DNA of 64,000 bases from Burkholderiaceae bacterium (lineage in GTDB: Bacteria; Pseudomonadota; Gammaproteobacteria; Burkholderiales; Burkholderiaceae_D), in contig JAGTRJ010000004.1 of NCBI GenBank assembly GCA_018261755.1, forward strand, positions 1 through 64,000. Direction: 5' to 3'. The translations under genes were made by a program, and so were the position numbers. The notes beneath the pieces were generated by a model. The model was not told the DNA's origin, did not search any database, and worked only from the letters and a program-made list of their open reading frames with translations. Shown here in pieces: positions 2,359 to 59,884 of this stretch (position 1 is its first letter; each line of letters opens with the position of its first letter).

Positions 2359-2436
2359 CAAAATAATACTCCATGGTGTATTTTAAAAATGCCTAGAAAA
2401 AATTGGCACAAAGCGAACTTTTTACCACATACCCCC
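2359..2436 (+). repeat. Intergenic repeat copy H (short form)
   Basis: Short copy of the dispersed element. It has an AATAATACTCC/GGTGTATTTT mini-palindrome at the left and ACCACATACCCCC at the right, with TTGGCACA between. It lies 76 bp after the dprA stop and before smg, and lacks the AACTGAC hairpin of the long copies. Confidence 0.75.
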
Positions 2437-2479
2437 ATGAAAAGCTGGAATTTCGCCCCTCGGGCGGCGCAAGCCCGGC

Positions 2480-2508
2480 TTGAACTGGCGGCAACATCCC
2501 TGTACAGT
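2480..2508 (+). promoter_or_regulatory. Sigma70 promoter of smg
   Basis: TTGAAC at 2480-2485, 17-bp spacer, TACAGT at 2503-2508. Only 7 bases separate the -10 box from the smg ATG, and no Shine-Dalgarno is visible, so the transcript may be leaderless. Confidence 0.55.
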
Positions 2509-2515
2509 AGCAACC

Positions 2516-2995
2516 ATGTTTGATGTCCTAGTCTATCTTTACGAGAATTATCACCACCCGGAAGTCTGCCCGGATCCGGTGGAGCTGGCCAAATCGCTGT
2601 CCGAAATCGGCTTCAAGGAAGCGGAGATCCGGGAGGCGCTGGCCTGGCTGACCGATCTGGCTGCGCGGACGCAAGGGTTTTCCAGCAGCAAGTCGGATGA
2701 ACGCGCGTTTCCGGCCAATGCGCATCGCGTCTATGCGCCGCAGGAATATACTGCGCTCGGCGTCGAGGCGATTGGCTTCATCGAGTCGTTGGTCAATTCG
2801 GGCGTGCTCAAGCCGATCGAACGCGAAATCGCCATCGAGCGCGCGCTGGCGACACAGGAATCGCCACTGACGCTGGAAAAATTGCGCATCGTCGTGCTGA
2901 TGGTGCTGTGGAGCCAGGGCGACGACCCGGATGCGCTGCTGCTCGACGCGCTGTTTCCGGACGATGACGGCGACGAACCGCGCCTGCCGCACTAG
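2516..2995 (+). CDS. smg: Smg family protein (DUF494)
   Basis: A 159-residue acidic protein starting MFDVLVYLYENY, the characteristic start of the Smg/DUF494 family. Smg is encoded next to dprA and a topoisomerase in many Beta- and Gammaproteobacteria; its biochemical role is not established. The chosen ATG at 2516 gives the family length; an in-frame extension upstream would run through the promoter. No ribosome binding site precedes the ATG, and the -10 box ends 7 bases before it. The gene ends with an acidic DDDGDEPRLPH tail, 159 bp before topB. Confidence 0.92.
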   Translation: MFDVLVYLYENYHHPEVCPDPVELAKSLSEIGFKEAEIREALAWLTDLAARTQGFSSSKSDERAFPANAHRVYAPQEYTALGVEAIGFIESLVNSGVLKPIEREIAIERALATQESPLTLEKLRIVVLMVLWSQGDDPDALLLDALFPDDDGDEPRLPH

Positions 2996-3070
2996 CCTGT
3001 TTCTGCTTGTTCCTGCCCGTTCTCGCCCCCATTTTCTTGCGTTTGCGCAACAGCGCTTTGCACAGGCCGC

Positions 3071-3098
3071 TTGCACGCGGCGCGAATTTGATTACACT
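3071..3098 (+). promoter_or_regulatory. Possible sigma70 promoter of topB
   Basis: TTGCAC at 3071-3076, 16-bp spacer, TACACT at 3093-3098, about 57 bp before the topB ATG. Read by eye only. Confidence 0.42.
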
Positions 3099-3154
3099 AT
3101 CCGCAATTTTGCCCATAAAACGTCGCTGCCCGACAGGCCGCACGGAAACTGAAT

Positions 3155-5872
3155 ATGTCGAAAACTCTCATCATCGCTGAAAAACCATCGGTCGCGAACG
3201 ACATCGCCAAATCGCTCGGCGGCTTCACCAAGCATGATGATTATTTCGAGTCGGACCAATATATATTGTCGTCGGCGGTCGGCCATCTGGTCGAGATTGC
3301 CGCGCCGGAAGAATATGAAGTCAAGCGCGGCAAGTGGACTTTCACCCACCTGCCCACCATTCCGCCGCACTTTGCGCTGAACCCGATCCAGAAAACCGAA
3401 TCGCGGCTGAAGCTGTTAAACAAGCTGATCAAGCGCAAGGATGTGTCCGAAATCATCAACGCCTGCGACGCCGGGCGCGAAGGCGAGCTGATTTTCCGCC
3501 TGATCGCGCAGCACGCGAAGGCGAAGCAGCCGATCAAGCGGCTGTGGCTGCAATCGATGACGCCGGGCGCGATCCGCGACGGTTTCACCAAGCTGCGTTC
3601 GGACGAAGAGATGCTGCCGCTGGCCGATGCCGCGCGCTGCCGCTCGGAAGCGGACTGGCTGATCGGCATCAACGGCACGCGCGCGATGACTGCGTTCAAC
3701 TCGAAGGAAGGCGGCTTTTACCTGACCACCGTCGGTCGGGTGCAGACGCCAACGCTGTCGATCGTGGTCGAGCGCGAAGAAGCCATCAAGCGCTTCATCT
3801 CGCGCGACTACTGGGAAGTCAAAGCCGAATTCGTCTGCGCCGGCGGCGTGTATGAAGGCCGCTGGTTCGATCCCAAATTCAAGAAAGACAATGCCGACAG
3901 CGAAAGACGCGCCGAGCGGCTGTGGAGCAAGACGGCGGCCGACACCATCGCCACCGCCTGCCGCGGCAAGCCCGGCGCCGTCAGCGAGGAATCGCGCCCG
4001 ACCACGTCGATGTCGCCGGCGCTGTTCGACCTCACCAGCTTGCAGCGCGAAGCGAACTCGCGCTTCGGCTTTTCGGCCAAGAACACGCTCGCGATTGCGC
4101 AGGCGCTGTACGAGCGGCACAAGGTGCTGACTTACCCGCGTACCGATTCGCGCCACCTGCCGGAAGACTACCTCGCGACCGCGCGCGAAACGCTGGAAGC
4201 GCTGAAGGAAAGCAACAACTACCAGCCATTTGCGGCGCAGATCCTGAACAAGCAATGGCTGAAACCGAACAAGCGCGTGTTCGACAACAGCAAGATTTCC
4301 GATCACTTCGCCATCATCCCGACCACGCAGGCGCCGAAGAACCTGTCCGAAGCCGAACAGCGGCTGTACGATCTGGTCACGCGCCGCTTCATGGCGGTGT
4401 TTTTCCCCGCGGCCGAATTCCAGGTCACGACCCGGATCACCGAAGTCTCCGGCCACCAGTTCAAGAGCGAAGGCCGGGTGATGACCAACCCCGGCTGGCT
4501 GGCGATCTACGGCAAGGAAGCGCTCGACAAGGACGCGGAAGGCAGCGGCGGCATCCTCGCGCCGGTGGCAAAGGATGAAAAAGTGCTGACCGACAAGGTG
4601 AACGCGAACGCGCTCGCCACCCGCCCGCCGGCGCGCTACACCGAAGCCACGCTGCTGACCGCGATGGAAGGCGCGGGCAAGCAGGTGGAAGAAGACGAAT
4701 TGCGTGAAGCGATGGCCGGCAAGGGGCTGGGCACGCCAGCCACCCGCGCCGCGATCATCGAAGGCTTGCTGACAGAAAAATACCTGCTGCGCGAAGGGCG
4801 CGAAATCCAGCCGACCGCGAAGGCATTCCAGTTGATGACGCTGCTGCACGGTCTGGGCGTGGATGAACTCACGCTGCCGGAGCTGACCGGAGAATGGGAG
4901 TACAAGCTGTCGCAGATGGAAAAAGGCCAGATCAGCCGCGACGAATTCATGCGTGAAATCGCGCAGATGGCGCAGGTGATCGTCAAGCGCGCGAAGGAAT
5001 ACGACGAAGACACAGTGCCGGGCGATTACGCCACGCTGGCCACGCCCTGCCCGAACTGCGGCGGCGTGGTGAAGGAAAACTACCGCCGCTTCGCCTGCAC
5101 CCAATGCGAATTTTCGATCAGCAAGATTCCCGGCAGCCGCCAGTTCGAGATTGCCGAAGTGGAGCAACTGCTGAAAGATCGCACCATCGGCCCATTGCAG
5201 GGCTTCCGTTCGAAAATGGGCCGGCCGTTCGCCGCCATCCTGAAGATCGTGCGCGACGAAGAACAAAACAACTACAAGCTCGAATTCGATTTCGGCCAGC
5301 CGCAGGAAGACGAAGACGGCGGCGAGCCGGTCGATTTCAGCACCCAGACGCCGCTTGGCGCCTGCCCGAAATGCGGCGCCAACGTGTATGAAATGGGGCT
5401 GGCCTACGTATGCGAAAAAACGGTGGCCAAACCGAAAGGCTGCGACTTCCGCAGCGGCCGCATCATCCTGCAGCAGGAAATCCTGCCGGCGCAGATGGCC
5501 AAACTGCTCAACGAAGGCAAGACCGACCTGCTGCCAGGCTTCATCTCGCAACGCACGCGCCGCCCGTTCAAGGCCTTCCTCGTGCGCGGCAAGGACGGCA
5601 AGGTCGGATTCGAATTCGAGGAACGCAAGGCAGGAGCGAAGGCTGCGACCAAAGCAGGAAGCAAAGCGGCAGCTAAAGCCGAAGACGCGGCAGACACAGT
5701 GGCAGAAACGGCGGTGAAGCCTGCGCGCAAGACGGCGGCCAAAACCGCCACCAAGGCAACAGCCGCCAAACCGGCTACGAAATCTGCCAGCGCCACGGCG
5801 AAAAAAACCACAGCGAAGAAAACCGCTGCGACCAAAAAACCAGCTGCAAAGAAAGCCACGGCGAAAGAGTGA
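3155..5872 (+). CDS. topB: DNA topoisomerase III
   Basis: A 905-residue type IA topoisomerase that decatenates and relaxes DNA by single-strand passage. The N-terminal TOPRIM domain opens with LIIAEKPSVA, and the metal-binding ACDAGREGELI follows near residue 105. The catalytic tyrosine is Y327 in LTYPRTDSR. Two zinc-ribbon-like segments follow: CPNC..FACTQC near residue 630, and CPKC..CEK with a later Cys near 735. Residues from about 823 to the end form a low-complexity Ala/Lys tail of AKKTTAKK-type repeats, like a histone H1 tail, probably giving non-specific DNA affinity. The core is of normal length, so the tail is an addition. Confidence 0.95.
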   Translation: MSKTLIIAEKPSVANDIAKSLGGFTKHDDYFESDQYILSSAVGHLVEIAAPEEYEVKRGKWTFTHLPTIPPHFALNPIQKTESRLKLLNKLIKRKDVSEIINACDAGREGELIFRLIAQHAKAKQPIKRLWLQSMTPGAIRDGFTKLRSDEEMLPLADAARCRSEADWLIGINGTRAMTAFNSKEGGFYLTTVGRVQTPTLSIVVEREEAIKRFISRDYWEVKAEFVCAGGVYEGRWFDPKFKKDNADSERRAERLWSKTAADTIATACRGKPGAVSEESRPTTSMSPALFDLTSLQREANSRFGFSAKNTLAIAQALYERHKVLTYPRTDSRHLPEDYLATARETLEALKESNNYQPFAAQILNKQWLKPNKRVFDNSKISDHFAIIPTTQAPKNLSEAEQRLYDLVTRRFMAVFFPAAEFQVTTRITEVSGHQFKSEGRVMTNPGWLAIYGKEALDKDAEGSGGILAPVAKDEKVLTDKVNANALATRPPARYTEATLLTAMEGAGKQVEEDELREAMAGKGLGTPATRAAIIEGLLTEKYLLREGREIQPTAKAFQLMTLLHGLGVDELTLPELTGEWEYKLSQMEKGQISRDEFMREIAQMAQVIVKRAKEYDEDTVPGDYATLATPCPNCGGVVKENYRRFACTQCEFSISKIPGSRQFEIAEVEQLLKDRTIGPLQGFRSKMGRPFAAILKIVRDEEQNNYKLEFDFGQPQEDEDGGEPVDFSTQTPLGACPKCGANVYEMGLAYVCEKTVAKPKGCDFRSGRIILQQEILPAQMAKLLNEGKTDLLPGFISQRTRRPFKAFLVRGKDGKVGFEFEERKAGAKAATKAGSKAAAKAEDAADTVAETAVKPARKTAAKTATKATAAKPATKSASATAKKTTAKKTAATKKPAAKKATAKE

Positions 5873-5919
5873 TGCCACGCGCCGCCAGCGGCGCGTTTCG
5901 CCCGAACTGCCGGCGGGGG

Positions 5920-6079
5920 CAAAAATGACTGCACCCCGCTGGCAATTTCGTTCAACAAGGCCAAAATAACTGACTCACACGCCATTTCCAGTCAGTTAGG
6001 CCAAAAAATATACTCCCGCCAGTATTTAAAAACAGCCAGCAAAACTGTGGCCAAGCGGCATGTTTTGGCTATATACCCC
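5920..6079 (+). repeat. Intergenic repeat copy A (long form)
   Basis: Long copy in the convergent gap between topB and galE. It holds an upstream module (AAAATGACTG..CTGGCAATTTCGTTCAA), a perfect 8-bp hairpin AACTGACT/AGTCAGTT with a 14-base loop, and the core ATACTCCCGCCAGTATTTAAAAA through GGCTATATACCCC, here quoted in parts. The rest of the gap (6080-6268) shows nothing recognisable. Confidence 0.8.
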
Positions 6080-6268
6080 ACTCATTTTGTGTCCATGCCG
6101 CAACCGGTTGTTGAATGGCTGCGGGGACAAATCACTATCGTCGCCCCAGCGCAAGCACTACGAGCGAGAACGTGCGTCGTCCTATCTGAAAGGTCTCAAG
6201 TCAAATACGCATAGCCTATTTTGAACCGATTCCGGAATGACCAAACCAGGCCAGAACCGCTGGCATCA

Positions 6269-7282
6269 TCAATATCCATCCGGATTCGTGCTCTGCCAGC
6301 GCCAGGCATCGCGGCACATGTCGTCCAGCGTCTTTTCGGTGCGCCAGCCAAGCAGCTTTTCCGCCAGCGCCGGATCGGCGTAGCAAGCTGGCACGTCGCC
6401 GGCGCGGCGCGGCGTGATTTGATGCGGAATCGTCCGGCCGCACGCAACCTCAAACGCGCGCAAAACTTCCAGCACGCTGTGCCCGCGGCCCGAACCGAGA
6501 TTCACGGTAAACCCCGCCGGCTGCGCGAACAGGCGCTCCAGCGCCGCCACATGGCCGCGCGCCAGATCCATCACGTGGATGTAATCACGCACGCCAGTGC
6601 CATCCGGCGTCGGATAATCGTTGCCGTACACTTGCAGCCGTTCGCGCCGGCCGACCGCCACCTGCGCGATGTATGGCATCAGGTTGTTCGGCACGCCCTT
6701 CGGGTGTTCGCCAATCAGGCCGCTCGGATGCGCGCCGACCGGGTTGAAATAGCGCAAAATCGCGCATTGCCAACTGGCATCGCTGCGCACCAGATCGCCC
6801 AGCATCTGCTCGATCACCAGTTTCGTCCGGCCATACGGGCTGGCCGCCGACAGCGGCGCGTTTTCCGCCACCGGCACGGTGGCCGGATCGCCATACACGG
6901 TGGCCGACGAACTGAAAACGAAACGGCGCACGCCGGCATCGGCCAGCGCCTGCAACAAGGTCTGCGTGCCGCCAATGTTGTTATCGAAATACAGCAGCGG
7001 CTTCGCCACCGATTCGCCCACCGCTTTCAGCCCGGCGAAATGGATCACCGCATCGACCCGATGCTGGCGCAGCACCGCATCCAGCGCGGCGCGGTCGCGC
7101 ACGTCGGCTTCGATGAAGGGCGCACTGTGGCCCGTGATTTGTTCCACGCGCTCGATGGCCACAGGCGAACTGTTGCTCAGATTATCGAGCGCCAGCACGC
7201 TGAAACCGGCTTGCAGCAACTCGACGCAAGTGTGCGAACCGATGTAACCGGCCGCGCCGGTCACGAGTATGGTGTTTGACAT
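6269..7282 (-). CDS. galE: UDP-glucose 4-epimerase
   Basis: A 337-residue short-chain dehydrogenase-type epimerase that interconverts UDP-glucose and UDP-galactose. The NAD-binding motif GAAGYIGSHT sits at residues 8-17. The catalytic triad region includes FSSSATVYG and the SPYGRTK (Tyr-x3-Lys) motif near residue 150. The start MSNTILVTGAAGYIG was chosen over a longer frame because GalE proteins begin within a few residues of the first beta strand. It is transcribed away from pilA; the two share a 400-bp gap. It could supply sugar nucleotides to the glycosyltransferases encoded further along, an inference from proximity only. Confidence 0.94.
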   Translation of the reverse strand: MSNTILVTGAAGYIGSHTCVELLQAGFSVLALDNLSNSSPVAIERVEQITGHSAPFIEADVRDRAALDAVLRQHRVDAVIHFAGLKAVGESVAKPLLYFDNNIGGTQTLLQALADAGVRRFVFSSSATVYGDPATVPVAENAPLSAASPYGRTKLVIEQMLGDLVRSDASWQCAILRYFNPVGAHPSGLIGEHPKGVPNNLMPYIAQVAVGRRERLQVYGNDYPTPDGTGVRDYIHVMDLARGHVAALERLFAQPAGFTVNLGSGRGHSVLEVLRAFEVACGRTIPHQITPRRAGDVPACYADPALAEKLLGWRTEKTLDDMCRDAWRWQSTNPDGY

Positions 7283-8265: not shown

Positions 8266-10236
8266 TCAGCGCTGCCACGCCATCTGCCCGCAATCCAGTT
8301 TAACTTCACCGCGTTCAAACGCCGACACAGTGCCAAGAACCCGTACAGGACTGCGCGGACGCTTCAGCACGATGTGATCTTCGTCATCAATGCCAATCCA
8401 CAGGTCCGTATTCATGTCGCTGCGTTCCCAAGCATTATTGCTGCGAAAGACAGCGGGGCTGGTCGCGGCAAATTTTGCCGGACATGTTTGCTGCACCTTG
8501 TCCAGAATGGCTGCTGCGCGAGTGCGCGCGCGCTCAATTTCGGGGTCAATCGACGCTGGCTTCAAACCACAGGACATGATCTTTTCATAGAGCTCGGATT
8601 CCGGAACCTGTTCTGGCTGCACGCCTGAGGCGAAATGCACATTCAGCAAAGGCCGGTGTTCGATCGGCAGGCAATCCGTTTCATCAATGCGCAAGCCGAA
8701 CTGGTTTAATTGCTTGTTGCGCATGCCATAATAAATTTTCCGCAAATTGTCCGACGAGCCAATCGGCAACTCATATTCAAAAATTACCCGTGTCCTGCCT
8801 CGATATTCGTCCAGCAAACGCTGCAGCCGTTGGCCGCCAGGCGTGGTTAGCGAGAGCGAGTTTTGCCCGACAATGTTCACGAAACGCGAATCGGAATGGT
8901 AAAACACCGCCAGAAAGGCATTGCTCAACACATTCATGCTGAGCGAAAGATGTGGTTCGGCTGTCAGTTTCTGCGGGATAATCAGCTTGAACCATGGGCC
9001 GTCCCAATCCAGCGCCACATTGAAACGACGCTTGCCGGCGTAATAGACTTGCACCATCTGCACGGCCAGCAGCAGCACCAAGATCAGTTTCACATATCGC
9101 AATGGCAGCAGACGCCACAGCAAGACGCCGCACCCCGGCCCAATCAGCAATAGCAATGGAATCAGGTAACGCCCGTTTGAGGATACCAGCGCCCAGAGCA
9201 GCCAACCGACGGCAATATATGCCACAAATACCGTCTGGCTCCCCGACAACGCCTTCGCCCCCAGCCATTCATGCACGACCGACACATGTTTTAGCACCGC
9301 AACAAGCACCAGCGACGCACACGCGGCGAAAAACACGGCAAAGCGCATATCCGGCGCAATGATTTCCGCATACACCCAGGCAACCGGATCAACCATCCGG
9401 AATGGCAGTGTCATCACGTCTGTCAGCGATTCTGGCAAAAACCTCGCATGCTGATGATTCGCCGCAATGAAATCCGGCGAACGGAATACTTTGTTCAAGA
9501 GCGGGAAAAACGGATTGCCGAATTCCCGGTACAAGATCCAGCACCAGTGCCCCGCCGTCAGCAGCCCACCGATAAGGCCACTGGCACCCAGTACCGCGAA
9601 AAATTTCACCCGCCGCTGCAAATGCAAACCCGGCAGAAAACCGAAAACACATGCAGCCAGTGCGAATGGCGCATTCGTCAGTTTCATGCCGGTCGCGGCG
9701 CCCAGCAAAATACCCGCGACAAAAGTGTAAAGGAGCAGCCTTTCCGGTTCATCCCCCCCCTTGAGCAGTAACAGCACCGCCGCCAGCACGAACACCGACA
9801 AACTGATATCGGCATATGACGCGCCAAGCTCCATCAGGAACAGTACGCTGAATGTTCCCAGCAACAGACACAACAACGCCAACACCCAGCGCCCCAGCGG
9901 CGAGTCATTGGGCACATGCATGACTCGCTTGCATATGGCCCAAAGAAAAAACAGGTTTAGCGCGTGAAATGTCGCCAGCACAGAGCCGATGACCAGACTA
10001 TGCCAACCCGCTTTCACCATCAAGTAAAACGGCACATAAGGCAGGGGATTCAAATAACTCTGGAAACTGCCTGCCATGAAATCCTTGCCAATCAGGCCAT
10101 TCAGGTATGCATGCGGCCCATACAGGTAGTAATTGCGCAAATCCCAGTTGTAATCCGCGCCGGCATACCACGATAACGCCAGGCACAATGCCAGACTTGC
10201 GGTATAAACCACCCCATCAAGAATTTTCTTGTTCAT
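8266..10236 (-). CDS. GT-C-like polytopic membrane protein, copy 1
   Basis: A 656-residue protein with about ten or more hydrophobic segments in its first 420 residues and a soluble, presumably periplasmic, C-terminal domain of about 230 residues. The first loop contains D28-Y-N-W-D32, an acidic cluster placed as in GT-C glycosyltransferases that use lipid-linked sugars. It closely matches the next gene upstream along most of its length, so the pair is a tandem duplication. The C-terminal domain of both copies keeps cysteines (DETDC, SCG, QQTC, and one near the end). It is the last gene of a five-gene minus-strand operon with GtrA- and GtrB-like proteins. I recognise no specific family; role in transferring a sugar to pilin or lipopolysaccharide is inferred. 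Confidence 0.72.
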   Translation of the reverse strand: MNKKILDGVVYTASLALCLALSWYAGADYNWDLRNYYLYGPHAYLNGLIGKDFMAGSFQSYLNPLPYVPFYLMVKAGWHSLVIGSVLATFHALNLFFLWAICKRVMHVPNDSPLGRWVLALLCLLLGTFSVLFLMELGASYADISLSVFVLAAVLLLLKGGDEPERLLLYTFVAGILLGAATGMKLTNAPFALAACVFGFLPGLHLQRRVKFFAVLGASGLIGGLLTAGHWCWILYREFGNPFFPLLNKVFRSPDFIAANHQHARFLPESLTDVMTLPFRMVDPVAWVYAEIIAPDMRFAVFFAACASLVLVAVLKHVSVVHEWLGAKALSGSQTVFVAYIAVGWLLWALVSSNGRYLIPLLLLIGPGCGVLLWRLLPLRYVKLILVLLLAVQMVQVYYAGKRRFNVALDWDGPWFKLIIPQKLTAEPHLSLSMNVLSNAFLAVFYHSDSRFVNIVGQNSLSLTTPGGQRLQRLLDEYRGRTRVIFEYELPIGSSDNLRKIYYGMRNKQLNQFGLRIDETDCLPIEHRPLLNVHFASGVQPEQVPESELYEKIMSCGLKPASIDPEIERARTRAAAILDKVQQTCPAKFAATSPAVFRSNNAWERSDMNTDLWIGIDDEDHIVLKRPRSPVRVLGTVSAFERGEVKLDCGQMAWQR

Positions 10237-10276: not shown

Positions 10277-12253
10277 CTACTGTGAAGACCCTTGCCAGGA
10301 CTTGTACAGCGACAAGCAATCGATCCCGGCCTCGCCTCGCTCGAAGGCATCCCGCGAAGCAATAACGTATCCCGGTTTTCCTGAAAATTGCGCATAAATA
10401 TATTCCCGATCCACGCGCAGCCAAATCTCGGTGTTCAAATCAAAACGTGCCCAAGCATGTCGGTCTCGAAACACCACCGGACTGGTTGCCGTGAACCTTG
10501 ACGGGCAGGCTTGCTGCACTTTGTCCATGGTCATGGCAGCATGTATCCGATCGCGTTCGATCGCCTGATCGACCGATACAGGTTTGACGCCGCAGGAAAC
10601 AATCTTGACCGAGCGCTCCGCATCCGTCAGCGGCCGACCCGAGACATTGCCTGGCGGCAGATCCATCGGCACGCCGGTATGCACAAATGAAATGCAATCC
10701 GTTTCATCAAGGCGCAAGCCAAAACGATTTAACTGCATGTTGCGCATGGCTTGATATTTCTCGCTTATTTCACCGGACACCATTTCATTCTCAAACACCA
10801 CCCTTGTCCGACCACGGTATTCCTCCAGCAGCCGACGCAAGCGCTGTCCACCAGAGGCATCCAAATCCAGCGAATACTGCCCGACGATATTCACAAAACG
10901 CGAATCCGGATGATAAAACGCGACCAGAAACGCATCCGGTTGGACCCCCATGCTGAGCGACAGATGCGGTTCATTTTTCAGCTTTGCCGGAATCTCCAGT
11001 TCGAACCAGGCACCGTTCCATGGGCGCGCCACGCTGAAGCGTGTGCGCCCCGTGTAATGAAATTGCACCAATTGGAGTCCAATCAGCAACACCAGCGTCA
11101 GCATCGCAAGGCGCTGCGGCAGCAAGCGGTTGAGAACGGCACCGCACCCGACGCCAATCAGCAGGGTCAACGGCATCAGATAACGACCATTCGAAAACAT
11201 CACCATCCAGATCAGCCAGCCGACAGCGATATAGGCCACGAATGCCATCTGGCTGGCGGTAAACCCAACGGCATCTAACCTCTCTCTCAATGCTGGCCAC
11301 CATTTTTTCAGCGACACAAGCAATACCAGCAATGCGCCAACACCAAAAAATATGGCGAAGCGCATCTCCGGAGCAGACAGTTCCGTATAAATCCAACTGT
11401 AAGTTTCGATAATGCGAAATGGCAGTGTTAATGCGTCGCCCAGCGATTCCGGCAAAAAGCGCTCATGGCGGTGCGACACCGAAATAAAATCCGGCGAGCG
11501 GAACACGCCATTGAAAAACGGAAAAATCGGGTTGCCGAATTCGCGGTACAACAACCAGCACCAGTGACCTGTTGCCAGCAAACCGCCAGCGATGCCGCCC
11601 ACAATGAGGCTGACGAAGAAACGGAAGCGGCGCATCCATTGCATTCCAGGCAAAAAACCAAACACGCAGGCAGCCACTGCGAACGGCGCATTCGTCAATT
11701 TCAGCCCAGCGCCTATTCCCAGCAGAACACCACCGGCGAGCGCATAGCGCATCAGGCGTGCGGGTTCATCTGTTCCCATTATCAGCAGCAGCACACCAGC
11801 CAGCACAAATACCGACGTGCTGACATCGACATAGGTTGATCCGACTTCGACCAGAAATAACGTGTTGGCCACACTCAACAGCAGGCAAAGCAGCGCCAGA
11901 AAATACCGGCTGCGCGGCGCGCCTTCGGCTGCATTCATCATGCGCTTGCAGATCGGCCACAGCAGAAATAAATTCAGTGCATGAAACGCCGCCAGCAGCA
12001 ACCCGATTATCAGGCTATGCCAGCCGGCTTTCACCATCAGATAAAACGGCACGTAAGGCAGCGGATTCAGGTAGCTCTGAAAACTGGCGCCCATGAATTC
12101 CGTGCCAAGCTGGCCATTCAGATAAACATGCGGCGCATACAGGTAGTAATTGAACAGATCCCAGTTGTAATCACGCCCGGCATACCAGGTAAAAACCATG
12201 CAAAACGCGAGGCTGGCGGCATAAACCGCCCAATCAACTATCTTCTGGTTCAT
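10277..12253 (-). CDS. GT-C-like polytopic membrane protein, copy 2
   Basis: A 658-residue paralogue of the downstream gene, with the same D28-YNW-D32 first-loop motif, the same SYLNPLPYVPFYLM segment and the same soluble C-terminal domain. The start at 12253 overlaps the gtrA-like stop as ATGA, and it gives an N-terminus collinear with the other copy (MNQK versus MNKK). An upstream in-frame extension is therefore rejected. The ATGA overlap implies translational coupling to the flippase-like gene, fitting a three-component Gtr-type system: GtrB charges the lipid, GtrA flips it, and a GT-C enzyme transfers the sugar outside the membrane. Substrate and acceptor are unknown. Confidence 0.72.
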   Translation of the reverse strand: MNQKIVDWAVYAASLAFCMVFTWYAGRDYNWDLFNYYLYAPHVYLNGQLGTEFMGASFQSYLNPLPYVPFYLMVKAGWHSLIIGLLLAAFHALNLFLLWPICKRMMNAAEGAPRSRYFLALLCLLLSVANTLFLVEVGSTYVDVSTSVFVLAGVLLLIMGTDEPARLMRYALAGGVLLGIGAGLKLTNAPFAVAACVFGFLPGMQWMRRFRFFVSLIVGGIAGGLLATGHWCWLLYREFGNPIFPFFNGVFRSPDFISVSHRHERFLPESLGDALTLPFRIIETYSWIYTELSAPEMRFAIFFGVGALLVLLVSLKKWWPALRERLDAVGFTASQMAFVAYIAVGWLIWMVMFSNGRYLMPLTLLIGVGCGAVLNRLLPQRLAMLTLVLLIGLQLVQFHYTGRTRFSVARPWNGAWFELEIPAKLKNEPHLSLSMGVQPDAFLVAFYHPDSRFVNIVGQYSLDLDASGGQRLRRLLEEYRGRTRVVFENEMVSGEISEKYQAMRNMQLNRFGLRLDETDCISFVHTGVPMDLPPGNVSGRPLTDAERSVKIVSCGVKPVSVDQAIERDRIHAAMTMDKVQQACPSRFTATSPVVFRDRHAWARFDLNTEIWLRVDREYIYAQFSGKPGYVIASRDAFERGEAGIDCLSLYKSWQGSSQ

Positions 12254-12645
12254 GATCGGCCAGTAAAAACGAATCTCCGAAGCAATGTGTAGTTGAGCAC
12301 AGGCACGATGACGCAGGTGACGAAAAACCCCAGTACCGGCATGAAACCGAGCACTGTATTGAACAACCACGGAAGAAAGGTGTATAGCAACAAGCCAAGC
12401 AACGAGGACGCGATGAAACGCGGGAACTCCACTCGCCGCGACCCGGTGGATTCAAACGTCAGCCAGCGGTGCCCGAGATATACCAGCGGCACGATCAGCA
12501 TGAAGGCAATGAAACCGCTAGTGGCAGAAGACAGGCCGCTTGCTTCCAGCCATATGCCAACAGCCATGTATGCCAGCGAAGTTACACCGCCAACCAGCAG
12601 ATAGAAAAACAGGCGTCGCCATTGCGCTGGAATGCGTTTGAACAT
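12250..12645 (-). CDS. GtrA-like flippase
   Basis: A 131-residue protein with four predicted membrane helices, N-terminal KRIPAQWRRLFFYLLVGG and C-terminal YTLLRRFVF, the layout of the GtrA family (PF04138). Members are thought to flip undecaprenyl-phosphate-linked sugars across the inner membrane. It lies 22 bp after the GtrB-like gene and overlaps the GT-C-like gene by ATGA. The family is diverse, so the sugar cannot be named. Confidence 0.85.
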   Translation of the reverse strand: MFKRIPAQWRRLFFYLLVGGVTSLAYMAVGIWLEASGLSSATSGFIAFMLIVPLVYLGHRWLTFESTGSRRVEFPRFIASSLLGLLLYTFLPWLFNTVLGFMPVLGFFVTCVIVPVLNYTLLRRFVFTGRS

Positions 12646-16408: not shown

Positions 16409-16437
16409 GCCGGGCCAGCGGCGCCTCAGGAATTCCA

Positions 16438-16597
16438 GGGGTATATAGTCAAAACCAGTCGCCGGGCCACGATTTTGCTGGCTTTTTTCAAATACTGGCA
16501 GGAGTATATTTTTCAGCCTAACTGACTCAAACGGCGAATCCAGTCAGTTATTTTTGGCTTATTGAACGAAATTGCCAGCAGGGTCAGTTATTTTTCC
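16438..16597 (-). repeat. Intergenic repeat copy B (long form)
   Basis: Complete long copy, reversed relative to copy A, in the convergent gap between xseA and the dadA-like gene. Hairpin arms AACTGACT/AGTCAGTT are present with a different loop. The upstream module GCTGGCAATTTCGTTCAA is nearly identical to copy A. Confidence 0.8.
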
Positions 16598-28962: not shown

Positions 28963-29082
28963 GGCAAAAATAACTGACTGAAATGAACGGCAGGTCAGTA
29001 AGGCCGAAAAATATACTCACCCCAGTACATAAAAACCGCCTCAGAATATGTGGCCCAGCGCATTCATTTGACCACATACCCC
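28963..29082 (+). repeat. Intergenic repeat copy C (long form)
   Basis: Long copy 31 bp downstream of the CYTH stop, opposite in sense to that gene. The hairpin is ACTGAC/GTCAGT, and the core is more diverged (CCCCAGTACATAAAAACCGCC). The right end CCACATACCCC is intact. Confidence 0.75.
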
Positions 29083-29113
29083 GTCAATTCCGAGCAAAAC
29101 CTGCCACACAGCA

Positions 29114-29741: not shown

Positions 29742-29818
29742 CGGGGCGTAGCGCAGCCTGGTAGCGCACCTGCATGGGGTGCAGGGGGTCGTGAGTTCGA
29801 ATCCCACCGTCCCGACCA
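29742..29818 (+). tRNA. tRNA-Pro (GGG)
   Basis: A 77-nt gene. The acceptor stem is CGGGGCG paired with CGTCCCG, discriminator A, and CCA is encoded. The anticodon arm is CCTGC/GCAGG with loop ATGGGGT, giving anticodon GGG, which reads CCC. The T-loop is GTTCGAATC. A degenerate copy of its 3' 40 bases occurs at 34145-34184, marking it as an integration site. Confidence 0.95.
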
Positions 29819-29826
29819 ATAAAATC

Positions 29827-29866
29827 AACGGGTTAGCGAAATTTAACGCTGCCCGTTTTTCTTTTT
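29827..29866 (+). terminator. Terminator after tRNA-Pro
   Basis: AACGGG-TTAGCG stem pairing with CGCTG-CCCGTT, loop AAATTTAA, followed by a T-rich run. The following stretch 29870-30231 is AT-rich and shows no gene. Confidence 0.8.
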
Positions 29867-33895: not shown

Positions 33896-34144
33896 GAGGA
33901 AAATGGTTCCAGACTCACTATACAATCGCCGTAGAAAAAGCGCTATGAGAAAACTGTGGTCCGCCCCTTATTGTACCCGCCAGATATGCGTATGAGAGTC
34001 GTGGTATCAATAGACTATTTTTCGCGCAGGTCGCCGCCACAAACACCGCAGGATCTTTCTGTGCACAACTGCATCAATCTGCGACTGCCAACGTATGGCA
34101 GCTTTCTTCCGTGGGAATTTGAAAAAGAAAAGCAAGAAGATGTC

Positions 34145-34184
34145 GTGCAGGGGGTAGTGAGTTTGAATCCAACCGTCCCGACCA
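34145..34184 (+). repeat. Degenerate attachment-site copy of tRNA-Pro 3' end
   Basis: Forty bases matching 29779-29818 with three differences, ending in the same CCCGACCA. There is no 5' half, so it is not a tRNA gene. It marks the right boundary of the island. Confidence 0.8.
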
Positions 34185-34196
34185 GAACAGTCATGC

Positions 34197-41792: not shown

Positions 41793-41814
41793 GGGTGTGA
41801 ACCACCGTCGCAAG

Positions 41815-41893
41815 GCGAAATAATACTGGTGGGGGTATATTAAAACAGCCGCGGGATATCCGGCCCAGTGGCGTTGTTTGTTCATATACCCCC
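41815..41893 (+). repeat. Intergenic repeat copy D (short form)
   Basis: Short copy between the nitroreductase and flgP-like genes: AATAATACTGGTGGGGGTATATT mini-palindrome in two halves, GGCCCAGTGGC centre and CATATACCCCC end. No AACTGAC hairpin. Confidence 0.75.
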
Positions 41894-41935
41894 AAGCATT
41901 CAACATCGTCGCTTGCGCCTGCGCAAAGCATTTTC

Positions 41936-47282: not shown

Positions 47283-47293
47283 CCCCAAACGCA

Positions 47294-47412
47294 GGGGTAT
47301 ACAACCAAAACCATGTGCCGGGCCACAATTTTAGTGGCTGTTTTTAAATACTGCCAGGAGTATATTTTTCAGCCCAACTGACCGGAAGCAACATTCCGGT
47401 CAGTTATTTTCC
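47294..47412 (-). repeat. Intergenic repeat copy E (long form)
   Basis: Reversed long copy in the convergent gap between ybhB and lon, 11 bp after the ybhB stop. Its hairpin is the strongest of all: AACTGACCGGAA/TTCCGGTCAGTT, 12 perfect pairs with a 6-base loop. Confidence 0.82.
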
Positions 47413-52024: not shown

Positions 52025-52183
52025 CAAATAACTGCCCCCCACTGGCAAGCCCATTCAATCAGGCCAAAAATAACTGACCTAAATGAACAACGGGTCAGTA
52101 AGGCCAAAAAATATACTCCGACCAGTATTTAAAAACCGCCAGCAAAAATGTGGCCCAGCACCATGTTTTGGCTACATACCCCC
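52025..52183 (+). repeat. Intergenic repeat copy F (long form)
   Basis: Complete long copy in the convergent gap between pssA and leuA. It has the upstream module, hairpin ACTGACC/GGTCAGT, and the core with CCAGTATTTAAAAACCGCC in parts and GGCTACATACCCCC. Confidence 0.8.
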
Positions 52184-52304
52184 ACACGCTCAGGACTCTG
52201 AGTGATTTGCAGTAGGTAAATTTCCCGTTTGATATGTTTCCAGCACTCGCTATGGATGAAGTGCAAGCAGCTGGGTTGTCGCTGCTCATCCGCTTGCGAC
52301 GCTG

Positions 52305-52484
52305 CCGCTGGCGGGGAGCCCAAAGCGGATCAGAAACAAAAGTTGTCTGAGCGCAGCGAGTTTCTTTTGTTTCCCGCTTTGGGCTTCTCGTCAGCGGGGA
52401 ATTCAGCGGCGTTGCGGTCGCCTTTTTTGGCCTACCTTTTTTGGCGACGCAAAAAAGGTAGGTAGCCGCCGGGCTACCCCCGGC
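52305..52484. repeat. Cluster of inverted repeats before leuA end
   Basis: The non-coding stretch 52184-52586 holds three hairpins. A long imperfect one at 52305-52397 has arms of 38 and 34 bases, including AGCCCAAAGCGG/CCGCTTTGGGCT and GAAACAAAAG/CTTTTGTTTC. A perfect 11-bp one is CTACCTTTTTT/AAAAAAGGTAG (52432-52461). A GCCGGG/CCCGGC one lies at 52468-52484. No gene is evident. Confidence 0.6.
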
Positions 52485-52586
52485 AAGCCCGCAGAGCTGT
52501 AAATACCAACTTCTTGCCAACGCCATACGCTTGCGCAAAGCGCCTCGATGCCGCCCGCTAGCACATGTTGCCGCGCCCCAAAATGC

Positions 52587-55245: not shown

Positions 55246-55419
55246 ACGTGCTCTCCAATTTAAACGATGCGCGACAGGATTGGGCCACACTGCCGCCAGC
55301 CTTTGGGGCAACGCGGAAATGGTTGCGCGGGTGATGCCGCATTACCCGGCCATCCACTCAGATTCCTGCGCTCAGGGCGCCTTGCAACTCATCCCACGCA
55401 TCTATACCGTCAACGCCTC

Positions 55420-55941
55420 CTAGCGCCCCCGGCCACCCCGGCCGCTACGGCTACTCTCGCCCGGGTCGAACATCGGATCGCGCCCGTTCTGCATCTCCCG
55501 CACCACGCCAGCGCGGTCGAAATGCACATGCATCAGCGAATCCCAGACCCCGCCTTCCTTGTAGCGATACGACCAGACTTCGAGCTGGCGCAATGGCAGC
55601 CAGTCGGTTTCGGCCGGATGCCCGAACATGCGCTGGATGTCGGCCTTGCTGGTCACGCCAACCTTGACGGTCGCGAATTTCTCGACCGTCAGCACCTGCT
55701 CCCACGATACCAGCCGGCCATCCGGGCCGAGCTTGACCATGTGCGTCGTCTGCCCCCACGGCCCCTGCGGGTATTCGAGCAATTGTCCATCCGCCACCGG
55801 ATAGCGTCCGGCCGGCTGGCCCAGCTTCGCAATCACTTCCTGCTCGGAAATGCCGGATCGCAGATTGTCGGATGAAAAAGTGACGCAGGCTGTCAGCGAA
55901 AACGCCAGCAGCAGCGAAAGAACGGGTTTGACCATTTTCAT
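55420..55941 (-). CDS. BamE/OmlA-like lipoprotein
   Basis: A 173-residue protein with a lipobox (SLTAC, Cys near 19). The SmpA/OmlA-like fold has two repeats: ISEQEVIAKLGQPAGRYP near 32, and VTSKADIQRMFGHPAETDW near 98. The tail is Gly/Arg-rich. True BamE is shorter, so this may be a relative rather than the BAM subunit. Start MKMVKPV has AAGGGGA upstream. Confidence 0.75.
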   Translation of the reverse strand: MKMVKPVLSLLLAFSLTACVTFSSDNLRSGISEQEVIAKLGQPAGRYPVADGQLLEYPQGPWGQTTHMVKLGPDGRLVSWEQVLTVEKFATVKVGVTSKADIQRMFGHPAETDWLPLRQLEVWSYRYKEGGVWDSLMHVHFDRAGVVREMQNGRDPMFDPGESSRSGRGGRGR

Positions 55942-55986
55942 GCGTATCCCCTTGCGCCGGCACAGGCGCATTGCCTGCCACGGCAA

Positions 55987-56015
55987 TTGAATGGAAAAGA
56001 GTTTTGCGCTATACT
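55987..56015 (+). promoter_or_regulatory. Sigma70 promoter of rpsO
   Basis: TTGAAT, 17-bp spacer, TATACT, about 88 bp before the rpsO ATG; the leader includes a GGCCTGATTCGGCC hairpin. Confidence 0.6.
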
Positions 56016-56103
56016 GCGCGCTTGGCCTGATTCGGCCATGTCTTTTTGATAATCACGGTGCATGGGGTCGCGACTCCACACACCGCATGTGAAAGGTAAT
56101 TAT

Positions 56104-56373
56104 ATGTCTATTGCAAAAGAAGCCAAAGCGGCCATCGTGGCCGACAATGCGCGCGGCGCCAACGACACAGGCTCCCCGGAAGTTCAAGTCGCATTGCTGA
56201 CCGCCCGCATCAACGATCTGAATTCGCACTTCAAGACCCACGCGAAAGATCACCACTCGCGTCGCGGCCTGATCATGATGGTCAACCGCCGCCGTAGTCT
56301 GCTGACCTACCTGCGCAACAAGGATTTGAACCGCTATCGCGATCTGATTGCCAAGCTCGGCCTGCGCAAGTAA
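56104..56373 (+). CDS. rpsO: 30S ribosomal protein S15
   Basis: An 89-residue S15 that binds 16S rRNA early in 30S assembly. [37 protein letters not shown] and LLTYLRN are diagnostic. It is followed by a terminator-like hairpin and pnp, the conserved rpsO-pnp order. S15 usually represses its own translation through its leader. Confidence 0.97.
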
Positions 56374-56410
56374 GCCTTTGCGCCAACCGATTCAGGCTGA
56401 TATGCAAAAT

Positions 56411-56443
56411 TGCCTGCGCCAGATATCTGACGCGGGCTTTTTT
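56411..56443 (+). terminator. Terminator/attenuator between rpsO and pnp
   Basis: Imperfect hairpin GCCTGCGCCAGA/TCTGACGCGGGC followed by TTTTTT. Partial read-through would let pnp share the rpsO promoter. Confidence 0.7.
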
Positions 56444-56557
56444 GCTATTTGCAGGCTTTGAAATTTGCAGTTTCCAAGCAGCAAAGCGGCATACGCCGCT
56501 GTAACGAGGTGAACGACAGCGCCTGAAAATCTGTCGGCTAACAAGAAAGGAACACCC

Positions 56558-58684
56558 ATGTTTAACAAAGTCACCAAAACCTTCCAGTACGGCCAGCACC
56601 AGGTCACGCTTGAGACCGGCGAAATTGCCCGCCAATCCACCGGTGCCGTGCTCGTGTCGATGGACGACACCGTCGTGCTGGCTACTGTCGTGGCGCAGAA
56701 AAACACCCGCCCCGGCCAGGACTTTTTCCCGCTGACCGTTGATTACATTGAAAAAACATACGCCGCCGGCAAGATTCCGGGCGGCTTCTTCAAGCGCGAA
56801 GGTCGTCCGTCCGAAAAGGAAATTCTCACTTCCCGCCTGATTGACCGCCCGATCCGCCCGCTGTTTCCGGAAGGCTACTACAACGAAGTGCAGGTCATCA
56901 TTCACGTACTGTCGGTCAACCCGGAAATCGATCCGGACATCCCGGCGATGATCGGCGCTTCTGCCGCGCTGTGCATTGCCGGTATCCCGTTCAATGGCCC
57001 GCTTGGCGCCGCGCGCGTCGGCTATGACAATGGCCAGTACATCCTGAACCCGACCACGACGCAATTGAAAACGTCGAGCATGGATCTGGTCGTCGCCGGC
57101 ACGGAACAGGCGGTGCTGATGGTCGAATCCGAAGCGCAGGAACTGTCCGAAGACATCATGCTGGGTGCGGTGGTTTATGGTCACGAGCAGATGCAGGTCG
57201 TGGTTAATGCGATCCACGATCTGGTCGAAGAAGGCGGCAAGCCGGAATGGGACTGGCAGCCAGCGCCGAAGAACGAAGCACTGATCGCCGCCGTGACCGC
57301 CGTCGCGCAGCCGCTGCTGGAAGAAGCGTACCAGACGCGCCAGAAGCAGGCTCGCACCGACAAGCTGCGCGCCGCGACCGCCACCGTGCTGGCCACGCTG
57401 ACTGAGCAGGCCGCCGCCGCTGGCGTCGCCACGCCGGATTCGGTCGAAGTCGGCAACATCCTGTTCGACATGGAAGCGAAGATCGTCCGTTCGCAAATCC
57501 TGAACGGCGAACCGCGCATCGACGGCCGCGACACCCGCACCGTGCGCCCGATCACGATCCGTTCCAGCGTGCTGCCGCGCACGCACGGTTCGGCGCTGTT
57601 CACCCGCGGTGAAACGCAGGCACTGGTGGTGGCCACCCTCGGCACCGCGCGCGACAGTCAGAAAATCGATGCGCTGATGGGCGAATTCACCGACAGCTTC
57701 ATGCTGCATTACAACATGCCGCCGTTCGCCACCGGCGAAACCGGCCGCGTTGGTTCGCCGAAACGGCGCGAAGTCGGCCACGGCCGTCTGGCCAAGCGCG
57801 CGCTGGCAGCGGTGCTGCCGTCCGCGGACGAGTTCAGCTATTCGATGCGTCTGGTATCAGAAATCACCGAATCGAACGGTTCATCCTCAATGGCATCGGT
57901 CTGCGGCGGTTCGCTCGCACTGATGGATGCCGGCGTGCCGATCAAGGCGCACGTTGCCGGCATCGCGATGGGCCTGATCAAGGAAGGCGGCAAGTTTGCC
58001 GTGCTGACCGACATTCTGGGCGATGAAGACCATCTCGGCGACATGGACTTCAAGGTCGCCGGCACCGCCAACGGCGTGACCGCACTGCAGATGGACATCA
58101 AGATTCAAGGCATCACCAAGGAAATCATGCAGGTGGCGCTGGCACAGGCGAAGGAAGGCCGCGTGCATATCCTGGGCAAGATGCAGGATGCAATGCCGAA
58201 CTCCAAGTCCGAGCTGTCGAACTTCGCGCCGCGCCTGATCACCATCAAGATCAACCCGGAAAAAATCCGCGACGTGATCGGCAAGGGCGGCGCTGTCATC
58301 CGTGCGCTGACCGAAGAAACCGGCACGCAGATCGATATCACCGACGAAGGCGTCGTCACCATCGCGTCTGTCGATGGCAAGGCGGGCGAAGAAGCGAAAC
58401 GCCGCATCGAGGAGCTGACGGCGATGGTCGAAATCGGCAAGATCTACGAGGGCACCGTGCTGAAACTGCTGGATTTCGGCGCCATCGTGCAAATCCTGCC
58501 GGGCAAGGACGGCTTGCTGCACATCAGCCAAATTGCCAACGAGCGCGTGAACGAAGTCAAGGACTACCTGCAGGAAGGCCAGACGGTTCGCGTCAAAGTG
58601 CTGGAAACCGACGATCGCGGCCGCGTGAAGCTGTCGATGAAAGCGGCTGCAGCAGAGCAGGCAACCGAAACCGCGGCACAATAA
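56558..58684 (+). CDS. pnp: Polynucleotide phosphorylase
   Basis: A 708-residue PNPase, the 3'-5' phosphorolytic exoribonuclease of mRNA decay. Two RNase PH domains are present ([19 protein letters not shown] at the start; [15 protein letters not shown] and [17 protein letters not shown] in the second). The KH domain is near residue 555 ([20 protein letters not shown]) and the S1 domain near 625-695 ([28 protein letters not shown]). AAGGAA precedes the ATG. Length is normal. Confidence 0.97.
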
Positions 58685-58754
58685 TCAGCCAACCTGACCT
58701 TGGCGCATCGATTTGATGCCCAAGGTCAATTCCTTGTGTTGAAGTTGTCGTTAC

Positions 58755-58792
58755 AATCTCACCCGCGCCATGATGGACGGGTGAGATTTTTT
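58755..58792 (+). terminator. Terminator after pnp
   Basis: Perfect stem AATCTCACCCG/CGGGTGAGATT with a 12-base loop and a T-run. A second hairpin (CCTTGG..CCAAGG) lies just upstream at about 58699-58727. Confidence 0.85.
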
Positions 58793-58830
58793 GCATAACG
58801 CCTGGCGCCTTCTCACGAAAAAAAACAATC

Positions 58831-59811
58831 ATGCGAGCAATAGAAATCATCCCGGATGGCGCCAACAGCGTTTTGCGGGCCTGCGAACGCGCCATCCCCA
58901 CACCCGGTGCCGGCGAAGTCCTGCTCCGCGTTCATGCGGCCGGCATCAACCGGCCAGACGTGCTGCAACGCATCGGCCGCTATCGGGTGCCCGATGGCGT
59001 GACCGACATCCCCGGCCTGGAAGTGGCCGGCGAAATCATCGGCGGCGATCTAGGCCACGGCGGATTCAAGCTGGGCGACATGGTGTGCGCGCTGCTGCAG
59101 GGCGGCGGCTATGCCGAATACTGCACCGCGCCGGTGGCGCAATGCCTGCCGATCCCGAAGGGCTTGAACGCCATTCAGGCCGCGTCATTGCCGGAAACCT
59201 ATTTCACCGTCTGGAGCAACGTGTTCGACCGTGGCCGCCTCTCTCCGGGAGAAACTTTCCTTGTGCAGGGCGGCACGTCCGGCATCGGCGTGGCGGCGAT
59301 CCAGATTGCCACCGCACGCGGCCACCGCGTGTTCGCCACAGCGCGCACAGAAGAAAAATGCCGTGCGTGCGAAGCGCTCGGCGCGGTGCGCGGCATCAGG
59401 TACACCGACGAGGATTTTGGCGAAATAGTGATGTCGCACACCAATGGCCGAGGCGTGGATGTGATTCTCGACATCATGGGCGGCAGCTACCTGCCGCGTG
59501 AAATCAACTGTCTGGCCGATGATGGCCGACTGGTGTTGATTGCGCTGCTCGATGGCCGCCGTGGCACGCTCGATATGGGCCAGGTGCTGCACCGCCGGCT
59601 GACGGTCACCGGCTCGACCCTGCGTCCTCGTCCGGTCGAATTCAAGGCGGCGATTGCGCAAAGCCTGTTGCGCGAAGTCTGGCCGATGCTGGAATCCGGC
59701 CAGGTCAAGCCCGTCATTTACCAGACTTTTCCGCTCGAACAGGCCGGCGAAGCACATGCGCTGATGGAATCAAGCATGCATGTCGGCAAAATCATCCTGC
59801 AAGTCGCCTGA
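58831..59811 (+). CDS. NAD(P)H quinone oxidoreductase (PIG3-like MDR family)
   Basis: A 326-residue zinc-free medium-chain dehydrogenase/reductase: HAAGINRPDVLQRIGRY near residue 31, the nucleotide-binding VQGGTSGIGVAAIQIA near 145 and GRGVDVILDIMGGSY near 206. It would reduce quinones with NADPH. It follows pnp, as in other Burkholderiales. The last base of its stop begins repeat copy G. Confidence 0.9.
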   Translation: MRAIEIIPDGANSVLRACERAIPTPGAGEVLLRVHAAGINRPDVLQRIGRYRVPDGVTDIPGLEVAGEIIGGDLGHGGFKLGDMVCALLQGGGYAEYCTAPVAQCLPIPKGLNAIQAASLPETYFTVWSNVFDRGRLSPGETFLVQGGTSGIGVAAIQIATARGHRVFATARTEEKCRACEALGAVRGIRYTDEDFGEIVMSHTNGRGVDVILDIMGGSYLPREINCLADDGRLVLIALLDGRRGTLDMGQVLHRRLTVTGSTLRPRPVEFKAAIAQSLLREVWPMLESGQVKPVIYQTFPLEQAGEAHALMESSMHVGKIILQVA

Positions 59812-59884
59812 AAATACTCCCACGGGTATTTCTAAACTACTCCGGAAATAGTGGCGCAACGGCGGTATTTCACCACATACCCCC
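59811..59884 (+). repeat. Intergenic repeat copy G (short form)
   Basis: Short copy filling the convergent gap between the quinone oxidoreductase and fbp: AATACTCCCACGGGTATT palindrome, GTGGCGCAA centre, CACCACATACCCCC end. It begins on the last base of the upstream stop codon. Confidence 0.75.

Follow-up and report, generated by a model that had tools for sequence, protein, structure and literature searches.

A family of ~90-bp intergenic elements in Oxalobacteraceae is best read as a dispersed chromosomal protein-binding site

Introduction

Bacterial chromosomes carry dispersed sequences of several kinds. The chromosome-organising sites matS, Noc sites, KOPS, and parS are 8–16 bp long. Motifs for DNA uptake, including DNA uptake sequences (DUS), which occur in dialects, and uptake signal sequences (USS), span 10–30 bp and are present at a density of ~1 per kb. 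The cut motif of DNA gyrase is TGRYC-like. What sets the ~10-kb topological domains of bacterial chromosomes is unsettled, and no genome-wide boundary that is encoded in sequence and has a ~10-kb spacing is known to us. This study concerns a family of intergenic elements, eight copies of which lie in a 64,000-nucleotide stretch of a Burkholderiaceae genome (the window; positions 1–64,000 of contig JAGTRJ010000004.1, assembly GCA_018261755.1). Repetitive extragenic palindromic sequences (REPs) are tagged palindromes of 20–40 bp, of which the GTAG type is associated with a transposase, and favour convergent and unidirectional gene pairs, as set out in PMC3733652. The gyrase motif of Escherichia coli, as characterised in PMC6379681, is ~130 bp long, symmetric, and degenerate, with a GC periodicity of 10.75 bp.

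The family described here can be compared with each of these systems. Like matS, Noc sites, KOPS, and parS, its members are dispersed, selected, and lineage-specific putative protein-binding sites; unlike them, they span ~90 bp, contain three or more conserved blocks with a constant spacing, and occur about once per 12 kb. Many copies, both orientations, and lineage dialects are shared with DUS and USS, but the family is about ten times sparser and its members are several times longer. Like the GTAG and CGTC superfamilies of REPs and of bacterial interspersed mosaic elements (BIMEs), the family is dispersed in hundreds of intergenic copies, prefers certain gene pairs (for REPs, PMC3733652), and forms modular composites. 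In contrast to REPs and BIMEs, its ~90-bp members are untagged, individually conserved, and seldom close together, with no transposase link found and no clear covariation. Alternating AT/GC tracts and a position at gene ends recall strong gyrase sites and BIME-2, but the family is asymmetric, has base-specific invariant blocks, shows a period of ~20 rather than 10.75 bp, and varies in its centre between genera. The family is best read as a dispersed chromosomal protein-binding site, an element of a broadly known kind, and we put the probability that each element is a protein-bound DNA site under selection at roughly 0.85. No description of the family was found in the literature searched; subscription journals were largely outside this coverage, so a prior paper is possible.

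Results

Architecture of the element

Alignment of the eight window elements confirmed that they form one intergenic family. Their number, their positions, and their division into three short and five long copies were as given in the initial annotation, which was made from the window sequence. The left palindrome that it described as ATACTCC..GRGTAT is better written as ATACT-N7-GTAT. In 156 aligned copies from the source genome (G000; 2,431,025 bases, 2.43 Mb), the core consisted, in order, of an A-tract, TATACT, a variable G/C-rich stretch, GTAT, TTW plus an A-tract, GCCA, an A-tract, and GTGGCC, followed by a variable stretch, TTTT, ATATACCCC, and, four bases later, a short AT tract. This AT tract, ~4–8 bases to the right of CCCC, is part of the site, as is the left A-tract. 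The overall scheme is an asymmetric site of fixed length: A-tract, ATACT-N7-GTAT, A-tracts, a genus-specific centre, T-tract, ATACCCC, AT-tract. Seven columns were invariant in 156/156 copies, while neighbouring columns, such as those of the loop and of the bases preceding TTTT, were almost unconstrained.

The distance from ATAC to the last C was exactly 70 bases in 140 of 143 distinct G000 copies retrieved with a relaxed pattern (68–72 allowed). In the commonest form, the two ATAC motifs lie 63 bp apart (six helical turns) and are both separated and flanked by AT tracts. The AT/GC alternation of the site had its strongest period at 19.5–20 bp. ATACT and ATACCCC face the same sense; matching inverted termini were not seen in the column profile or the alignments. 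In the profile of the 156 copies, the element ends carried neither a GTAG nor a CGTC tag, and the conserved core spans 70 bases. The entire site of ~90 bp carried 104 bits of information over 86 columns, where ~14.6 bits would suffice to pick out about 190 sites; the 104-bit figure is biased upward because copies were gathered with a model of the first eight.

The extra length of the long copies corresponded to a separate left module, an inverted repeat AACTGAC..GTCAGT, which was found in 90/145 copies and was absent from the other 55. Tandem doublets of sites also exist, 146–172 bases apart. At one locus, ~40 bp to the left of the module of site 2 (window 5920–5960) were present in G000 and missing from the corresponding locus (stretch L361) of G001, another species of the same genus (g1), so the outer modules may be gained and lost more quickly than the core.

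Copy number and distribution

Searches were performed with a sequence-only model built from the eight window copies (R1), with a model built only from 55 copies of the genus of Herminiimonas sp. CN (g13; R2), and with the strict pattern ATAC-N8-GTAT-N45..50-ATACCCC. In the window, R1 returned exactly the eight elements at E ≤ 1 (a match by construction), and in the whole of G000 it returned at least 150 copies (worst listed E 9e-13). The strict pattern gave 188 matches in G000 and none in a reversed control. On 19 contigs with a complete list, the strict pattern and R1 together identified 106 sites over 1.24 Mb; scaled to the whole genome, this corresponds to ~207 sites (~1 per 12 kb) and bears out the initial suggestion that the genome could hold hundreds.

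The scan of the full genome and of related Oxalobacteraceae that the initial annotation had proposed located the family in G000, G001, g13, and Undibacterium (g49). Among 40 genomes, R1 detected at least 112 copies in G001 and seven weak ones in G014, and no site in G002, a further g1 species whose genome is 99% complete. At least one match to the strict pattern was present in 36/392 family genomes. These comprised G000, G001 (157 matches), all four g13 genomes searched (30, 25, 57, and 84), 14 Undibacterium genomes (1–6 matches each), and 16 genomes from five other genera, whose single matches were taken as chance. R2, although trained on g13 alone, recovered g1 and Undibacterium sites: at E ≤ 1e-4, 13/195 family genomes were positive, all from g1, g13, or Undibacterium and including G000 and G001 (at least 22 copies each). 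The remaining 182/195 genomes, with G002 among them, yielded no site at this threshold (stricter filters). G014 contained at least 150 copies (worst listed E 5.9e-9). Across the order, a scan of 386 genomes from other families gave one singleton hit; of 13 genomes from within the family, G000, G050, and G080 were positive.

In a named-sequence collection, at least 71 stretches matched; 70 of these belonged to records of Oxalobacteraceae or Burkholderiaceae, and the other, from Flavobacterium, looks like chance. Searched with one G000 site, plasmid and phage collections gave no hit at E 0.01. A single viral contig from IMG/VR (L259) carried one g13-type site at positions 11860–11929; the site adjoins a gene that by eye resembles a thermonuclease gene, and the contig by eye resembles a temperate phage.

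Conservation of individual sites

Conservation at individual loci was assessed by comparison of G000 with G001. Of 60 distinct G001 copies, 54 were placeable and 6 were not; all 54 had a G000 copy at the same place and in the same orientation, a figure that is biased upward by the choice of G000 stretches around copies. In an unbiased check based on window copies chosen without reference to G001, and from which the copy at 28963 was left out, 7/7 copies tested were syntenic, one being degraded and one two bases shorter. Across 51 gap-free ortholog pairs, the fraction of differing cells was 1.3% in the 24 columns conserved in at least 95% of paralogs, and 42% in the 29 columns with a conservation below 70%. 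Zero differences over 27 conserved columns were found in 34/51 pairs. These sequence comparisons give good support to the view that the sites are ancient and that selection has kept each one at its locus. Paralogs differed at variable columns by 0.584, compared with 0.580 predicted by independence, and thus do not appear to be mainly recent duplicates. Since nearest paralogs were somewhat closer than simulated ones (median 0.27 vs. 0.32), some later duplication of sites is possible.

Between genera, the centre of the site occurred in dialects: g1 sites have GCCA..TGGC, most g13 sites CGCA..TGCGG, and Undibacterium sites different sequences. At about five loci, g1 and g13 sites were located behind the same gene and in the same orientation, each with the centre in its own dialect. 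Distances from stop codon to site in the two genera were 19/20, 3/5, and 33/33 bases at three of these loci. They were 44/119 at a fourth and 57/72 (16/169 when measured on the opposite flank) at a fifth; a further shared locus disagreed in orientation (75/134). In total, 11 distinct g13–g1 pairs were found. Eight were at the same gene end, of which seven agreed in orientation, and three were at other gene ends, with an agreement of 0/3. By our reading, the eight same-end pairs represent six distinct loci, five of them agreeing; by count alone, the agreement in orientation is weak (P 0.035 for 7/8; P 0.11 for 5/6). Comparison of Undibacterium with g1 gave three pairs, none at the same end, and comparison with g13 gave none. 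A further listing of cross-genus pairs with a switched centre retained orientation-agreeing pairs alone and so does not amount to a test.

Genomic placement and spacing

Placement relative to genes was scored with a simple codon-usage script for gene calling, and the resulting counts are approximate. Among 144 G000 copies with 700 bases available on both sides, 61 lay between convergent, 72 between tandem, and 5 between divergent genes; 5 extended more than a few bases into a predicted gene, and a single copy was without a flank. Relative to the 49 adjacent gene pairs of the window (10 convergent, 30 tandem, 9 divergent), convergent pairs were enriched (P 0.003) and divergent pairs depleted (P 0.002). 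Convergent pairs were also enriched in g13 (12/51 vs. 34/286 in the background, P 0.04), and 25/29 Undibacterium sites were between tandem genes. No strand bias was found: 38 G000 sites between tandem genes followed the direction of the genes and 34 opposed it, and over the three genera these numbers were 72 and 57 (P 0.22).

Spacing was analysed on the 19 contigs with a complete list (106 sites), with doublets closer than 400 bases merged. Gaps averaged 11.7 kb, with a coefficient of variation (CV) of 0.73 and 4.8% of gaps under 3 kb. Uniform placement predicted a CV of 0.89 (P 0.01) and 21.5% of gaps under 3 kb (0/5000 simulations as low), and placement restricted to non-divergent gene ends a CV of 0.89 (P 0.01) and 22% (0/2000). 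Without merging, the CV was 0.76, and 8.0% of gaps were under 3 kb compared with 24.5% (0/5000) and 22.2% (P 0.0005), respectively. Eight long contigs alone were more regular (CV 0.59 vs. 0.89; 1.5% vs. 22% under 3 kb). In G014, for which the list consisted of the best-scoring copies (at least 150), 3.8% of gaps were under 3 kb compared with 11.9% expected (P 0.002). Sites are seldom close together; strict periodicity is not supported.

Tests for RNA structure

In 55 g13 copies, pair statistics did not reveal compensatory change in any helix (best z 2.8, and stacked pairs did not form a run), and the apparent hairpins in the centre and near ATACCCC were without pair support in these copies. 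RNAalifold predicted no structure for 150/156 G000 cores. A reading of the element as RNA was rejected on these two results. In 16 Undibacterium copies of a 69-base type, there were at best two neighbouring, weakly covarying pairs (0.69 vs. 0.47 and 0.62 vs. 0.42 expected), and the tract preceding ATACCCC was either AAAA or TTTT, depending on the Undibacterium copy. No Rfam family overlapped a site, whether the window was searched at gathering threshold or eight loci at E ≤ 1. A hairpin plus T-run was not seen in the core; one strand of the left module showed a terminator-like signal in part of the copies.

Sites and other features of the window

Of the eight window sites, five are long (sites 2, 4, and 7 on the plus strand, sites 3 and 6 on the minus strand) and three are short. 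The short sites are site 1 (2356–2444, plus strand, core from ATAC to CCCC at 2366–2435), between tandem predicted genes and with a degraded but recognisable syntenic copy in G001; site 5 (41813–41901, plus strand, core 41823–41892), also between tandem predicted genes; and site 8 (59804–59892, plus strand, core 59814–59883). A predicted gene at 58831–59811 terminates within the footprint of site 8, and a convergent gene at 59894–60895 is next. Long sites between convergent predicted genes are site 2 (6000–6088, plus strand, core 6010–6079), with its left module, an AACTGAC..GTCAGTT inverted repeat, aligned at 5966–5999 (plus strand); site 3 (16429–16517, minus strand, core 16438–16507; module 16518–16551, minus strand), whose syntenic G001 copy has a core two bases shorter; site 6 (47285–47373, minus strand, core 47294–47363; module 47375–47407, minus strand, present in the G001 copy too); and site 7 (52103–52191, plus strand, core 52113–52182; module 52070–52101, plus strand). 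Syntenic copies of sites 2, 5, 6, 7, and 8 were present in G001. Site 4 (29003–29091, plus strand, core 29013–29082) was identified by alignment and model match, and its left module (28970–29001, plus strand), like those of sites 3, 6, and 7, by alignment.

At 52286–52489 lies another dispersed repeat, which is ~204 bp long and contains an inverted repeat. At least ten near-full copies with 75–90% identity occur in G002, and copies lie ~95–130 bases from a site at several G000 loci and one g13 locus (L035, L052, L105, L277; stretches chosen around sites). The 3' half of a tRNA gene at 29742–29827 is repeated (83%) at 34140–34193, 4.4 kb away, as at an integrated island; genes for a tannase/feruloyl esterase family protein, a phosphoesterase, and a beta-barrel protein lie between the gene and its partial repeat. 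Two tandem open frames on the minus strand, 8266–10236 and 10277–12370 (656 and 697 aa), are 74–84% alike at the DNA level over several stretches and had no Pfam match at E 1e-5.

Discussion

The site class itself is well supported. Its asymmetric, base-specific blocks at fixed spacing, information content of ~104 bits, locus-wise maintenance, scarcity of gaps under 3 kb, and indifference to strand lead us to propose that each element is a double-stranded docking site of ~90 bp for a sequence-specific protein assembly. Such an assembly would read ATACT-N7-GTAT at one end, the genus-specific centre, and ATACCCC at the other end. Some 200 sites, mostly behind gene 3' ends and in either orientation, would delimit units of the chromosome that serve anchoring, insulation, or control of transcription-driven supercoiling. 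Selection would keep the sites at each locus, while the centre would drift along with the binding specificity of the protein. Both the partner protein and the chromosome-organising role are inferred; among the roles considered, chromosome organisation at gene ends, be it through anchoring, insulation, or control of supercoiling, is tentatively the most likely. Purifying selection on each site and non-random spacing, two properties of a site for a chromosome-organising protein, were both found, with an otherwise modest regularity. A more specific version, in which the element is a boundary or anchor where a multi-part assembly with a ~90-bp footprint at ~200 spaced gene ends sets ~10-kb domains, and in which the recognition sequence has changed in place between genera of Oxalobacteraceae, is conceivable but rather doubtful.

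Several observations weigh against a chromosome-organising protein site. No partner protein was found, and Y1-type transposases do not track the distribution of the sites. The absence of sites from G002, which belongs to the same genus, implies that the function is dispensable or replaceable. Depletion of divergent gene pairs was observed in g1 and not in g13 (7/51 vs. 32/286 in the background). Between genera, adjacency to the same genes was not in excess: 9/91 site-adjacent genes, compared with 11/184 non-adjacent ones, matched a site-adjacent G000 gene (9/23 vs. 11/29 among genes with any match), and site positions are mostly unshared between genera. Regularity beyond the scarcity of short gaps was modest, with the CV of 0.73 on 19 contigs weaker than the 0.59 on eight; in G014 the CV was marginally low (0.85 vs. 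0.97, P 0.07), and tandem doublets ~150–170 bp apart occur. Curvature, which was estimated with a wedge model, was small in g1 and none was found in g13, so conserved intrinsic curvature is not supported.

A roadblock or terminator that acts at a specific sequence and stops transcription, possibly in both directions, is an unlikely alternative. Sites lie behind stop codons, divergent regions are avoided in g1, and the inverted repeat of the left module has a T-run on one strand. In G000, a terminator-like signal accompanied 32/80 genes reading the T-run strand of the module compared with 12/83 on the other strand. Genes that enter a site on the site's own plus strand have few other terminators (12/83 vs. 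35/150 without a site, P 0.13). In g13, whose profile is without the left module, the signal was found at 9/25 compared with 8/34 on the other strand. However, the core has neither a hairpin plus T-run nor clear covariation, the left module is missing from more than a third of copies (55/145), its presence between tandem genes is independent of orientation (21/39 and 17/32), and scarcity of gaps under 3 kb would not be expected of a terminator.

The initial annotation had hinted at a REP-like mobile repeat with a transposase partner. A REP-like or miniature inverted-repeat transposable element (MITE)-like repeat, moved by a REP-associated tyrosine transposase (RAYT) or another enzyme and without host function, likewise appears unlikely. 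High copy number, intergenic location, modular long and short forms, tandem doublets, patchy distribution, and slightly closer nearest paralogs than simulated would all fit mobility, as would placement behind genes, described for REPs in PMC3733652. The sole G000 match to a Y1 transposase (C19:31644–31979) is 0.84 kb from a site (C19:30735–30804), a proximity that may be due to chance given a site every 12 kb. Against mobility, the placeable G001 copies are syntenic in 54/54 cases (with G000 stretches chosen around copies), near-invariant columns have stayed fixed while variable ones diverged by 42%, and Y1 transposases also occur in site-free genomes. Matches to PF01797, in which RAYT and IS200 types are pooled, were found in 17/18 genomes with or without sites, including two in G002, and showed no distributional link to a RAYT partner. 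The hint of a mobile repeat was not supported, as copies have stayed in place and are conserved locus by locus. The remark that the family is no REP family stood, with no description found in the literature searched: the 20–40 bp palindrome with a GTAG or CGTC tag by which REPs are defined in PMC3733652 was absent from the profile of the 156 copies, and the core is longer. Terminal inverted repeats, expected for a MITE, were absent from column profile and alignments.

Strong sites for DNA gyrase or topoisomerase IV between transcription units, as counterparts of BIME-2, are quite unlikely. Placement at 3' ends and between convergent genes in g1, AT/GC alternation, and indifference to orientation would suit gyrase, and the G000 centre TGGCC is compatible with a TGRYC-like motif; the centre TGCGG of most g13 copies is not. 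This centre and the AT/GC period of ~20 bp lowered our estimate for gyrase. When set against the ~130-bp symmetric E. coli motif with its 10.75-bp period, as given in PMC6379681, the site differs in being asymmetric, in its invariant bases, and in its strongest period of 19.5–20 bp, and does not fit a strong gyrase site as defined there.

The site is very unlikely to be a DNA uptake (transformation) sequence maintained through biased uptake. Lineage dialects, both orientations, the scarcity of short gaps, and AT tracts beside the core recall DUS and USS, but uptake motifs of 10–30 bp at ~1 per kb contrast with ~90 bp, 104 bits, and 1 per 12 kb, and a motif so long would hardly re-arise at new places by point mutation. 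Least probable is a structured RNA or single-strand hairpin element: ATACT..AGTAT and the centres GCCA..TGGC and CCGCA..TGCGG look palindromic, and some arms in the 16 Undibacterium copies seem to covary by eye, but the tests described above found no compensatory pairs in the g13 copies, no RNAalifold structure for 150/156 G000 cores, and no Rfam match on sites, there is no strand preference, AAAA and TTTT interchange before ATACCCC in Undibacterium, and the invariant ATAC/GTAT pairs never vary and are hence uninformative.

A protein-bound, selected site thus remains the preferred reading of the family. Even with another function, individually conserved sites of ~100 bits that are rarely close together are unlike what is expected of dispersed repeats. 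A computable map of ~200 conserved sites per genome makes the idea of chromosomal domains directly testable, with G002 as a natural knock-out, the lineage dialects as a further handle, and the site itself usable as bait for the protein. If the boundary reading were true, these elements would represent a class of boundary element previously undescribed in bacteria.

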